Assembly: GCF_001989615.1 (NCBI RefSeq)
Contig: NZ_CP019067.1
Location: 434,001-498,000, forward strand
Direction of reading: 5' to 3'
DNA length: 64,000 nucleotides
DNA from: Halorientalis sp. IM1011
GTDB taxonomy: Archaea > Halobacteriota > Halobacteria > Halobacteriales > Haloarculaceae
Shown: positions 59,039-64,000 of the stretch, one piece after another
How the letters are laid out: every line of letters starts with the position of its first letter
How positions within the stretch are numbered: position 1 is the first letter of the stretch
Notes under the pieces: generated by a model
What the model saw: only the letters and a program-made list of their open reading frames with translations
Told to the model about the DNA's origin: nothing
The model's database searches: none
Made by a program: the position numbers and the translations under genes

Positions 59039-59713
59039 CTATACCGCCTCGTCGAGATACATCTCTTTCCGGTCGACGATATTCCGGACTGCTGATCGAG
59101 AGATTCCCGCGTGGTTCGCGGTCGATCGGATGGACTTGTCCTCCTTTTCGATTCGCTCGATCACTGCCAGTGCAGTGTCGAAGTTCTCGTTGGGGACGAG
59201 GTAGCCCTCGTCATCGGTGTCGAATCCGTACGGTGGCCGGCCGAGATGTTTTCCGGCTGCTTCCGCCGCTGCCAGCCCAGCCATAGTCCGCTCTTTGTTC
59301 AGCTTCGCCTCAAGTTCCGCCGCCATCCCCAGCAACTGGAGGACCATCTCGTCGTCAACCAGGCCGTCGCCGGCGTCCTCGCCGATGTGGAGATCGGCGT
59401 CGATGATGTGGACCGAGACGTCGTTGTCGTCGACGAGCCTGCCGACGGTCCGGTTCAGGTCGCGCATGTTACGTGCGATCCGAGAGACCTCGCGCACAAC
59501 CACGCGATCGATCTCGCCGTCTTTCGCTAGCTCCATGAGCTCCCGGTAGCCCGACCGGTCGGTGTCGGTCCCCGTGGACTGGTCCTGGAGAACGCGAACA
59601 TTCCCGGGCTTGACGTCGAGCGTCTCGGTGGTGTACTCCCACGCGGATTTCTTCTGTCCCTCGAGGGATTGCTCCTCAGTCGAGACTCGCGCGTAGATCG
59701 CAGTATCGCTCAC
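59039..59713 (-). CDS. Serine recombinase / resolvase
   Basis: A 224-residue serine recombinase. The nucleophile is Ser in YARVSTEEQSLEGQ (about S11). The catalytic-domain core is DRVVVREVSRIARNMRDLNRTV, and a C-terminal helix-turn-helix (SIRSTANHAGISRSAVRNIVDR) binds DNA. The length fits a small resolvase/invertase, and it may resolve or invert parts of the accessory region. It faces away from the DISARM-like genes and closes the small-gene module on its right side. Confidence 0.85.
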   Translation of the reverse strand: MSDTAIYARVSTEEQSLEGQKKSAWEYTTETLDVKPGNVRVLQDQSTGTDTDRSGYRELMELAKDGEIDRVVVREVSRIARNMRDLNRTVGRLVDDNDVSVHIIDADLHIGEDAGDGLVDDEMVLQLLGMAAELEAKLNKERTMAGLAAAEAAGKHLGRPPYGFDTDDEGYLVPNENFDTALAVIERIEKEDKSIRSTANHAGISRSAVRNIVDRKEMYLDEAV

Positions 59714-60252
59714 GTTTCCAACATGGTTGCTAGCTATATAAAAAATACACCTTTAGCACAGGCTGTTGTAAACCGGAGGGTTACTACCACGGTTGGCCGC
59801 GAATTTCGATTATTCTAATGTTCAATTCCCTCAAAGACAGAGTGTCGGCTGAGTTTGATTCAAGCGATAATCACGACCACAGATAGTCCCTGATTTGCCC
59901 CAGATATTTTGGAGAGAATATGACACCCAGACTAATAGCCGGTACGTATATTACGAAATCGGATTTTCTATCATCAGAGGACAACTTCAAACCAAATTCC
60001 GATCGGCTTGTCTTCGTCCATTAGCTGGATCCACTGATATGGGACAATATCGAACTGTTAGCATTTTCATAGCTCGTTCGAGACTATAACCCCTGGTCCG
60101 AAATCAGAAATCCATTCTAGGACACTGTAGGGTGCCCGATCTGCACCAATAATTTGCAATTCAAGCGCTCTCAAAAGTTTCAACCACCGGGCACGCTTGA
60201 ATCGTATGATCATCAGTAAAGTATTTCCAGGCCGGTACGTTTTGTCAGAGTT
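59714..60252. other. AT-rich intergenic region before the DISARM-like genes
   Basis: About 540 bases without a convincing gene, low in GC compared with the genes on both sides. It probably holds the promoter of the following operon, since the next gene uses a GTG at 60253 and no upstream ATG in frame was seen. Confidence 0.45.
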
Positions 60253-62718
60253 GTGCCGCTTACCGCTCTCTTCGACACTCCAGCGGTTAAGTCGCCGTTC
60301 ATTTCGTCCGGCAATCTCGCCGACGAAGAGCGACTAGTCTACTTCCCGGCCACGACGAGAGTACACGCAGGCCTTATCAGCGCGATGGTAGAGCGTGGCC
60401 AGGATCTGGTCATCGTGACACCGTCCGACAGAGCAGAATTTCTGCACCTCCACGCCCTAGAAGCTCTCTTCGGACCCAAGGTAGATGGCCGCAACGCGGT
60501 CTTCTTGCTCAGCTCCAACACAGAATTCCGTGAGCGGTTCCGACAGCTTGCTCCGACGTCAATGCGTCCACCACACGACAAGTCTCGCTACGCGCGTGAG
60601 GAGACCCCGATAGCTAACGTGACGAAAGATGGGTCACTAGCGACAGTAACGAAGAACCTGAACCATCCCGACAAGCCTGCGCGGTTTCTCTTCTCGTACA
60701 CGAGTACGCGTATTCCTTCGAACGATGTCGGAGACCGAATTCGGTGTGTAATCTACGACGACTCTGTAAAGTACGACGAAGAACGCCTCCTCCGATTACG
60801 GAAATGGAAACAGCGAAACGACGTGCCCGCAATAGTCTACTTTACGAGCAATCCGACGTCAGACCTCGTGGAGAAACTACGTGGACGAGCATTTCTCTGG
60901 GCGTGGCCACCTCGGCTGTTGTCTGCCGTAGTCAAGAGTGATCAAGATAGTGGGCACGAGTGGATAGGTACCGACGAGGAAGTGAGTCCGACAACCCGCC
61001 GTGCCCAGGTCGTCGCCAGGCGGGAGCAGAACCGCGTTTCGGGCCTCTCCATCGAGGTCCATACGTGCGGTGACGGTGACCTCCTCACAGCCCTGAAACG
61101 GGCAAACGACCGTCGGGCGAGGTTCGAGTACTTGGCACGAGAGTTGAACGCCGACATCCTCAAGCGTGGCCAGCAGCTTGTGCGGTACGCTCTAGGGAGT
61201 TTCCGCGAACTCTTGACCCCACTTGACGTGGCCGACTTTCACGCCCGGCGGACGACGATATCGAGCCGGCTTGCGCAGCTTGATCGGTTCGCGGGCCGCA
61301 TTGCGTCTGATCCCGAGGCGAATCCCGCAACCGGCACGTTCCGGGACGTAGTCTCAGCTCTCGAAGAGCTGGAGGAACTGTGGGACAATGTACCTGCAAG
61401 CGACAAGAAACAGGGCGTGCTCGTCGATAACCTGCTCTACGGTGCGCTCGACAGGGGGGACTCGATTTCCGTCGTCACGGCGACAGAAAGTCAACAGCAA
61501 GCACTCACGACGTTCCTCCAGTCTGAGCACGCTGCTCTCTACCGTGACCTGGGTGACGACCTATCGATACACGACACTCGCAGTGTTCGCTCGGCCGACC
61601 CGACGGACCACGTCGTCCTCTACGGCGCACTTCGTTGGGGCGACCGTGATCTCCTCCGCACCGACGTCGCAACAGACGCTATCGTCTTGGCGTATCCCAT
61701 CGAGATGGGCCTCCTCCACTCACAGGTGGACGCCTTGGAGGATTCCTTCGAGTCGATTGCGGACAAAACGTTCTGGAAGGTGATCGACAAGCTGACCCGT
61801 ATCACTACGGACGAACGCGCGGACGTCGAACGTGTGAACATTGACCTCCCCGAGTACGAAGAACCCAATACGAGCGATCTCGGTGAAGACATCTCCGTAG
61901 ACGAGGCCGAAGGAGAAGACTTGGGCGAAATCGTGCGAGGGTACGAGACAGATTACGAGGATAGTGAAGACTTCGACCCAACCGAGTACGAGACGTCCTC
62001 CACGCACCAGACGACTACCTCTGGGGGACAGACCGAAACCGACTGTCTCGACGTCCACTTTGACGGCGGCCTTTCCATGTACCTCCGCAAAGACACCGAA
62101 GTGTACACAGTACGCGAAGGCCACGACAAACTGTTCAAGAAGACCGCTTCGCGCCTCAAGGAACACGACGTCATCGTCCACCTGGGGGACACCGACGAGA
62201 TGCGTGACCAGCTGTACGCGTTGATTCGTGAACGCGGGGATGTCGGACTGTACTACTATGCGAACTTGTGGAAAGTCAACCTTGAAGCCGCCTTGGAGGA
62301 GACCGGTGACGATCTAGACGACTTCGTGGAGAAGATGGAACAACAAGGTCTAGACAAGAACCGCGGCACCTACGAGCGGTGGTACAAGATGGAAGTTCAC
62401 CGGACGCGATCGAAGAAGAGCTTCTGGGCCATCGCAGATGCGTACGATCTAGACGGCGTGAAAGAGAACTTCAGCCAGGTGTGGAACGCCGTCCAGGAGA
62501 TGGAGACTATATACAGTCGTCTGAAGAAAGCACTCAGACAGACAGCACTTCGATCTGCCGCCGACGGAACACTGGACGACGTGATGCTGTCGGAGAGTCC
62601 GGACATCCGGCTCAGTGACTTCGAGATCGGGAAGTACCTCTTCCGACTCGAAGTCCAATCGATAGAAGAGGGTGTCAAGGCCAAGAGTTCACAGATAGTA
62701 CGACTACGTGGGTTCTAA
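60253..62718 (+). CDS. DISARM DrmE-like protein (tentative)
   Basis: An 821-residue protein starting at a GTG. The N-terminal part (about residues 30-240) has helicase-like strands (LVYFPATTRVHAGL, LVIVTPSDRAEF, IRCVIYDDS and PAIVYFTSNPTSD) without a Walker A motif. The middle is helical. The phrase VVLYGALRWGDRDLL ... IVLAYPIEMGLLHSQV near residue 455 and a C-terminal helical domain after an acidic linker resemble DISARM DrmE proteins as I recall them. The next gene looks DrmA-like, as in class 2 DISARM (drmE, drmA, drmB, drmC, drmMII). An unrelated defence protein remains possible. Confidence 0.55.
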   Translation: MPLTALFDTPAVKSPFISSGNLADEERLVYFPATTRVHAGLISAMVERGQDLVIVTPSDRAEFLHLHALEALFGPKVDGRNAVFLLSSNTEFRERFRQLAPTSMRPPHDKSRYAREETPIANVTKDGSLATVTKNLNHPDKPARFLFSYTSTRIPSNDVGDRIRCVIYDDSVKYDEERLLRLRKWKQRNDVPAIVYFTSNPTSDLVEKLRGRAFLWAWPPRLLSAVVKSDQDSGHEWIGTDEEVSPTTRRAQVVARREQNRVSGLSIEVHTCGDGDLLTALKRANDRRARFEYLARELNADILKRGQQLVRYALGSFRELLTPLDVADFHARRTTISSRLAQLDRFAGRIASDPEANPATGTFRDVVSALEELEELWDNVPASDKKQGVLVDNLLYGALDRGDSISVVTATESQQQALTTFLQSEHAALYRDLGDDLSIHDTRSVRSADPTDHVVLYGALRWGDRDLLRTDVATDAIVLAYPIEMGLLHSQVDALEDSFESIADKTFWKVIDKLTRITTDERADVERVNIDLPEYEEPNTSDLGEDISVDEAEGEDLGEIVRGYETDYEDSEDFDPTEYETSSTHQTTTSGGQTETDCLDVHFDGGLSMYLRKDTEVYTVREGHDKLFKKTASRLKEHDVIVHLGDTDEMRDQLYALIRERGDVGLYYYANLWKVNLEAALEETGDDLDDFVEKMEQQGLDKNRGTYERWYKMEVHRTRSKKSFWAIADAYDLDGVKENFSQVWNAVQEMETIYSRLKKALRQTALRSAADGTLDDVMLSESPDIRLSDFEIGKYLFRLEVQSIEEGVKAKSSQIVRLRGF

Positions 62719-62922
62719 CCACTTCGTAATGTCTTTGGTTAGTTAGATTTTGTCTGAATGAACTACACCATCCTGGTTCTTGCTGCGTTCCTCCACTCTG
62801 AGGCCGTCAGACGGTAACTGAAACGAGTGGACCGAGTAACCCACTCTGGTTCCCCAGTTAGTCCGTCGTCCCGAATCGGTCTACCTCCCTAAACTTATGA
62901 CACTCTGCGATGACGAGAGGGT

Positions 62923-64000
62923 ATGGGCCTTGGGCCGCGTGAAATTCCACCACAATCCGACTCTCGCGGGTACGTTCGACCACCGGACGACGCGTACGAG
63001 ATAGATGAAGACGACAAGGATTATCAGCAGCACCAAGCCGTCAACAACGTTCTACTGGAACGACTCGTCGAACGAATCACGGGACGAGGCGACTACGGTC
63101 AGACCGTCTACGACGTCAATCCGAAGGACCAGTTCTTCGCAGGCGCGCTAGCGAGCCAGTACCAGTACCGCGAAGCGCAAGAGTCCGACGACGCGTTCGG
63201 GAACATCGCCACGCGAGTCGCACCCTTCACTATGGGGCTCCAGTTCAAGCTCCCGGCGTCAGTTCCGGACGACGAGACGGTGAAGATCAACCCGACTGCG
63301 AAGGTCTACTATCGCCGTCTACCGACCTACGAGGAGCAACAGGAGTTTGGTGGGCCCGTCGGATTCGATCCGGAGATTGCCGAAGACGATGCGCTCACAC
63401 CGCCTGAAGAGGACGAAGAGTCCGAGGCAGAAGATTCCGCGGACGAAGAATCCGGAGAGTATCCTGGAGATGACGCGTCGCTAGAGGAACTCCGACCAGT
63501 GTACGAACGAGTTCAGATCGACGCTGGCCCTCTCAGAGTTACCGCGGGCGACCTAAAGCGAGCCGCAAAGTCCGACGGCGAGCTGTCCCCACTCACGGCC
63601 GACGATGCGTTGACAGACGCGATGGAGACCTACCGGCAAGACGAGCGCCGGTACCGGGAGCCGGACCCGCCGGAAGAGGTAGACAGTCGTAACGAGGACA
63701 AGATTCCGGAAACTGCTCTGGAAGACGAGGAAACCTTCGAGACGTTCTTAGAACAACGATTCAGTGGAGACACGCCGACGCCAGTGTGGGATTTCGAGAT
63801 ATCACTCACAGCCCAATACGACGAGGACGACATCATCGTCTCCGTCTCCTTCGTGAACAAACACGGTATTGAGTATCCCGATGCGCTTGACCCTAAAGGC
63901 GAGGAGTGGCGGGCTTTCTTCTTCGACGTCAACTCCGAAGTTTCTGTCGAGGAGACTCCAATTGAGCCGTTCGTCTCCGACGAGATCAGGAACGAGTACC
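62923..64000 (+). CDS. DISARM DrmA-like helicase, N-terminal part (cut by right edge)
   Basis: The frame starts at an ATG at 62923 and stays open for 359 codons to the window edge, so no helicase motifs are yet reached. The N-terminus (LLERLVERITG, then NPKDQFFAGALASQY and TRVAPFTMGLQFKLPASV) matches my recollection of DrmA N-termini, where a PxxxFxxGxL segment and an (S/T)MGLxFxxP segment recur. A long acidic linker (EESEAEDSADEESGE) interrupts the domain. The gene starts 204 bases after the DrmE-like gene with a possible box (AAACTTATGA near 62891-62900). Confidence 0.5.
   Translation, partial: MGLGPREIPPQSDSRGYVRPPDDAYEIDEDDKDYQQHQAVNNVLLERLVERITGRGDYGQTVYDVNPKDQFFAGALASQYQYREAQESDDAFGNIATRVAPFTMGLQFKLPASVPDDETVKINPTAKVYYRRLPTYEEQQEFGGPVGFDPEIAEDDALTPPEEDEESEAEDSADEESGEYPGDDASLEELRPVYERVQIDAGPLRVTAGDLKRAAKSDGELSPLTADDALTDAMETYRQDERRYREPDPPEEVDSRNEDKIPETALEDEETFETFLEQRFSGDTPTPVWDFEISLTAQYDEDDIIVSVSFVNKHGIEYPDALDPKGEEWRAFFFDVNSEVSVEETPIEPFVSDEIRNEY

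Follow-up and report, generated by a model that had tools for sequence, protein, structure and literature searches.

A complete class 2 (PADLOC type II) DISARM defence system very probably resides on a recently transferred island of this haloarchaeon (probability about 0.9). It begins at the right end of the window, the whole 64,000-nucleotide stretch analysed (G000:C1:434001-498000 of a 3.78-Mb genome in three contigs), and continues to the right of it. The system is of a known kind, adding one archaeal member with an otherwise ordinary operon, and would be antiviral by analogy. The genes of the locus are given below; extended coordinates above 64000 continue the window numbering (window = L002 + 58000 = L003 + 74000).

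59039..59713, minus strand: serine recombinase, resolvase family (Pfam Resolvase, 3.4e-28), left of the DISARM block
59714..60252: AT-rich spacer upstream of drmE
60253..62718, plus strand: drmE, 821 aa, GTG start (PADLOC PDLC02636, 1601.6 bits, 1-821/821)
62923-66630, plus strand: drmA, 1235 aa, first 359 aa within the window, to 64000 (PADLOC DrmA PDLC02576, 2895 bits over the full length)
Extended 66633-68582: drmB (PADLOC PDLC02582, 1550 bits)
Extended about 68579-69466 (open reading frame from 68489): drmC (PADLOC PDLC02601, 626 bits)
Extended 69450-71747 (L002:11450-13747): GmrSD_N + Schlafen AlbA_2 fusion gene
Extended 71937-72944: u335
Extended 72892-73701: u269
Extended 73709-74401, minus strand: M33C_1 (DUF6339); M33C matches PADLOC PDC-M33C
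Extended 74403-75443, minus strand: M33B_1
Extended 75427-77409, minus strand: M33A_1; M33A matches PADLOC PDC-M33A
Extended 78119-79231, plus strand: MTase1, C5-cytosine methyltransferase (PADLOC DrmMII PDLC02651, 673 bits)
Extended 79327-79953, plus strand: HhH-GPD glycosylase
Extended 80094-81185, plus strand: MTase2, second C5 methyltransferase
Extended 81410-85208, minus strand: M33C_2, M33B_2, M33A_2
Extended 85614-87539, minus strand: DUF7845 protein
Extended 88570-88642 (L003:14570-14642): tRNA-Ala(GGC), 3' end facing the island

The original prediction had taken an 821-residue protein for DrmE and the gene after it, truncated at the end of the window, for DrmA. Both open reading frames (60253-62718, and 62923 to the window end) were present, and the 821-residue protein is DrmE by its full-length PADLOC match. 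As claimed, it lacks a Walker A motif, with neither GxxxxGK[ST] nor any GK[ST] in the sequence. Its supposed helicase-like strands were only partly borne out: in the structure model (mean pLDDT 51.6, built on seven sequences) the N-terminal half alternates strands and helices, but confidence there is low and the likeness to a helicase is only plausible. Pfam DrmE_C reached 22.1 bits on this protein, under the cut-off of 27. The cut gene is indeed drmA, and its product carries all the helicase motifs that were sought right of the window, namely Walker A TGGGKT, DELH, TATAT and QAYSRVGR (Q..SRVGR). It is homologous to the solved Serratia DrmA (PDB 7s9v, 1.4e-61). DrmB (DUF1998/MZB) follows directly, and directly after it comes the phospholipase D protein DrmC (PLDc_2, 1.3e-19), in which the HxKxxxxD motif occurs once. 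Across the locus proteins, Pfam DEAD, Helicase_C, MZB, PLDc_2 and DNA_methylase scored above cut-off, and DISARM-named NCBIfam models gave significant matches, yet below their curated cut-offs. PADLOC and Pfam labels are annotations. The three largest PADLOC models match over their entire length, probably because near-identical sequences went into building them, so that their scores are partly circular.

Class 2 DISARM, reportedly defined by Ofir et al. 2018, has the order drmE-drmA-drmB-drmC-drmMII. This order was predicted for the locus and holds, except that DrmMII stands outside the drm operon. The prediction had also placed DrmB, DrmC and a methyltransferase within about 12 kb of the window; the first two adjoin DrmA, but the methyltransferase starts ~14.1 kb beyond the window edge, 8.7 kb past drmC. 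PADLOC models run on the extended locus matched DrmE, DrmA, DrmB, DrmC and DrmMII, that is, all five components of the type II definition (PMC9252829). Class 1 DISARM was rejected, as PADLOC's type I definition does not allow drmE, which the locus has; neither DrmD nor DrmMI was found among the genes scanned at the locus. It is very improbable that the locus belongs instead to another system built on a YprA-family helicase (ARMADA, BRIGADE, Druantia or Dpd), even though these and DISARM all employ related helicases and BRIGADE is reported from halophilic archaea only (PMC12458937). The separate drmB gene with its MZB domain, together with DrmE and DrmC, argues for DISARM, the top-ranking models were all Drm, and the block showed neither a PglX-like methylase nor a BrxHII-like helicase nor deazaguanine genes. 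On this gene content, ARMADA, BRIGADE and Druantia were discarded.

The AT-rich spacer noted in the original prediction was confirmed, with 43-46% GC at 59750-60249 against mostly 57-69% leftward and 50-64% rightward, and the drmE promoter probably lies within it (59714..60252). As to the proposed integrase-led accessory region, a recombinase gene of the serine type is found just left of the locus. On the other side, the tRNA-Ala gene lies about 24.6 kb beyond the window, and the accessory region ends close to it: sequence shared with congeners starts again about 1.4 kb right of the tRNA, and window positions 25-40 kb are largely unmatched in congeners. A duplicated tRNA-Ala end was sought as the left border and not found. 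Between drmC and the M33 genes, the GmrSD_N-Schlafen AlbA_2 fusion begins inside the end of drmC. The slot after drmC is a variable cargo slot, because relatives have nothing there, or else an HNH nuclease (G332) or a 94% identical fusion (G021). The u335-u269 genes had no Pfam family above cut-off, apart from a weak PIN-like signal for u269 in one relative (E 0.029). They form a widespread mobile pair, perhaps a toxin-antitoxin: the u335 family occurs in 62 of 392 genomes, so the pair is not DISARM-specific, and u269 adjoins u335 in all 30 loci read. In G114 the pair is placed between drmE and drmA.

We surveyed 392 genomes of the order, most standing for one species each. DrmE was found in 11 of them (E up to 1e-10) and DrmA-like helicases in 48 (E up to 1e-40), the weaker of which may belong to other YprA-family systems. 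The order drmE-A-B-C is kept in six other genomes, with DrmE, DrmA and DrmB 78-98% identical. Close copies (DrmA 89-98% identical) are spread over four families; DrmA here is 94-98% identical to copies in families f1, f4, f7 and f17, and 89% to that of G283. Among the named carriers of a close DrmE are Halorubrum aquaticum and Haloferax profundi (the named search gave four loci). Over the drmE-drmC block, DNA identity is 93.7% with G262, of another genus in the same family, and 91.2% with G097, of another family, whereas within the genus the conserved DNA beyond the right side of the island shares mostly 70-90% identity. Neither DrmE nor DrmA occurs in the sampled congeners. The core thus appears to have spread by recent horizontal transfer, because its DNA is closer across genera and families than genus-conserved DNA and the congeners are without it. 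Variation in drmE was also seen. Halorubrum aquaticum (G021, L026:10812-18371) carries DrmE twice in tandem, with 89% and 41% identity to the one here, and between the two genes an 810-aa protein without family match. In G201 and G169 (L071:3207-6686, L081:1147-4710) the drmE position upstream of drmA is occupied by a protein of 1159-1187 aa that gives weak HEAT/PDS5-like and DrmE_C signals and is perhaps a distant DrmE replacement.

The methyltransferase expected right of the window was found, of the C5-cytosine type with DrmMII PDLC02651 as its best model. MTase1 is transcribed divergently from an adjoining three-gene unit of the PADLOC phage defence candidate PDC-M33, with the glycosylase and MTase2 alongside. 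The whole cassette consists of two copies of this unit, two C5 methyltransferases and the Mig-like glycosylase. Comparison with G262 in 200-bp windows showed 86-96% identity across u335 and u269 into M33C_1, and then 82%, 69% and 66% from about 73,980; within M33C the DNA identity drops from 92% to below 70%. The proteins behave likewise, with 92-98% identity from drmE to u269, 84% for M33C and 62-74% for M33B, M33A, MTase1 and the glycosylase. Conversely, G172 and G051, compared over about 20 kb around the cassette only, match the DNA here from M33C_1 to M33A_2 (about 77-84% and 78-80% in the main blocks), with the same gene order, although no glycosylase was found in G051. Their DrmA proteins are only 36% and 55% identical to the one here, respectively, which rules out a recent common core. 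These results indicate, at the level of sequence, that the DISARM core and the methylation cassette have recombined as two blocks, each with its own history, that meet inside M33C_1, because G262 identity drops within that gene and G172 and G051 share the cassette despite distant DrmA. An inversion of the whole M33-methyltransferase-glycosylase block relative to drmEABC was observed in G330 (L028/L029), where u335-u269 is missing.

Of the 392 genomes, 27 have M33A relatives, usually two or three diverged copies per locus. A DrmA-like gene was present in 14 of these genomes against 3.3 expected (nominal hypergeometric p = 1.7e-7, with phylogeny ignored), on the same contig and within about 10 kb; G172, with its distant DrmA (36%), is one of the 14. 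The co-occurrence figures given here are uncorrected for shared ancestry. An M33A_1-type protein (at least 55% identity) was found in 22 genomes, and in 21 of them a relative of MTase1 (59% or more) is directly divergent from it. In G292 the two open reading frames overlap by 49 bases since the longest start was used, hence the label 'other' given by the script. Nine of the 21 genomes are DrmA-free, and three MTase1 proteins from DrmA-free genomes match the 'DrmMII' model PDLC02651 at 676-856 bits. In DISARM loci without M33 (G114, G040, G219), the methyltransferase lies beside or near drmC, fits generic type II models better and reaches only 95-131 bits with PDLC02651.

We tentatively suggest, at slightly less than even odds, that PDC-M33, the methyltransferases and the Mig-like glycosylase form a self-contained methylation cassette that is paired interchangeably with haloarchaeal DISARM cores. 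Self-marking and attack modules would then evolve and transfer separately, and the DrmMII of this subfamily would really be an M33 component. A possible but rather doubtful alternative is that drmEABC works alone or with another host methyltransferase and that the so-called DrmMII belongs functionally to the neighbouring M33 system alone, which would be a defence or restriction-like system in its own right that happens to share the island. The divergent pairing of the MTase1 family with M33A_1 in DrmA-free genomes and the differing histories of cassette and core would fit this, but all seven close copies of the core carry the cassette with MTase1, M33 and DrmA co-occur well above expectation, and the drm block showed no further methyltransferase.

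M33A, the largest M33 protein, carries a motif set like that of GHKL-type ATPases, with motif-like invariant residues E68, N72, D75, G183, G186 and G188. The assignment stays motif-based because the best Foldseek matches of the structure model (mean pLDDT 78.3) were beta-sandwich domains, not ATPases; M33A had no PDB sequence match, and no GHKL protein was among the Foldseek matches listed.

The glycosylase has the HhH-GPD fold with a Tyr/Asp active site and Fe-S cluster cysteines, as in Mig-type enzymes, and a MutY substrate is possible. In an alignment of thirteen relatives Y119, D137, C187, C196 and C202 are invariant, and C193 is kept in 12 of 13. Beside C5 methyltransferases, the simplest reading is that it most likely repairs T:G mismatches from deaminated 5-methylcytosine. 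It is not essential to the cassettes, because it was not found near several of them (G027, G052, G107, G057, G051). That absence also weighs against the improbable idea that the glycosylase acts in restriction rather than repair, as an effector excising bases of unmethylated invading DNA; so do its membership, as an HhH-GPD protein, in the Mig/MutY group, the invariant Tyr and Asp of its active site, and the different fold of R.PabI-type restriction glycosylases. The effector idea draws on its linkage to methyltransferases and on the base-excising restriction enzymes that have been described (PMC10273834).

DrmAB binds ssDNA and 5'-overhang DNA; a trigger loop restrains it, its activity is lower when the DNA is methylated, and DrmC is a candidate effector (PMC9142583). 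By homology, the DrmA helicase and its partner DrmB would load onto incoming DNA that is unmodified and has 5' single-stranded ends, and the DrmC phospholipase-D nuclease and DrmE would act together with them in a presumed division of labour. The C5-cytosine methyltransferase would mark host DNA as self and presumably protect it from this DISARM, with the marking enzyme supplied by an adjacent, separately inherited cassette, and the Mig-like glycosylase would repair T:G mismatches left by 5-methylcytosine deamination, its putative substrate. The wider value of the locus lies in this modularity, and the exchangeable cassette is a lead beyond one more archaeal DISARM. If one DISARM core can sit beside different methylation cassettes, the need for a cognate methyltransferase versus any C5 methylation becomes testable. 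If so, annotation tools that call DrmMII by profile would label part of another system. For the PDC-M33 candidate, the locus provides a consistent gene set of a methyltransferase, often a mismatch glycosylase, and paired paralogues, testable as a unit.

Compared with known systems, the family profile of the glycosylase has its best PDB match in Mig (1kea, 5.4e-41), which is likewise encoded beside a C5 methyltransferase, but MutY scores nearly as high (4.4e-37) and the substrate here is predicted. M33A resembles the MORC/paraMORC GHKL ATPases found in restriction-modification operons (Iyer et al. 2008, PMC2292703) in its linkage to cytosine methylases and in its putative N-box and glycine-rich motifs of GHKL type. 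Unlike them, it has no sequence or top structural match to a solved GHKL protein, and no linked SF2 helicase was noted around it outside DISARM loci. The M33A and M33C proteins match PDC-M33A and PDC-M33C of the PADLOC entry, for which a literature search gave no paper; unlike in that entry, the units here are paired paralogues accompanied by one or two C5 methyltransferases and, frequently, by a Mig-like glycosylase; they were seen in 27 of 392 genomes. With class 2 DISARM the locus shares the five components in the same order, including a C5 methyltransferase, a PLD nuclease, and DrmA and DrmB as separate helicase and DUF1998/MZB proteins. It differs in that DrmMII lies 8.7 kb downstream within the M33 cassette, that the GmrSD-Schlafen gene and the two-gene mobile pair stand in between, and that the methyltransferase is duplicated.
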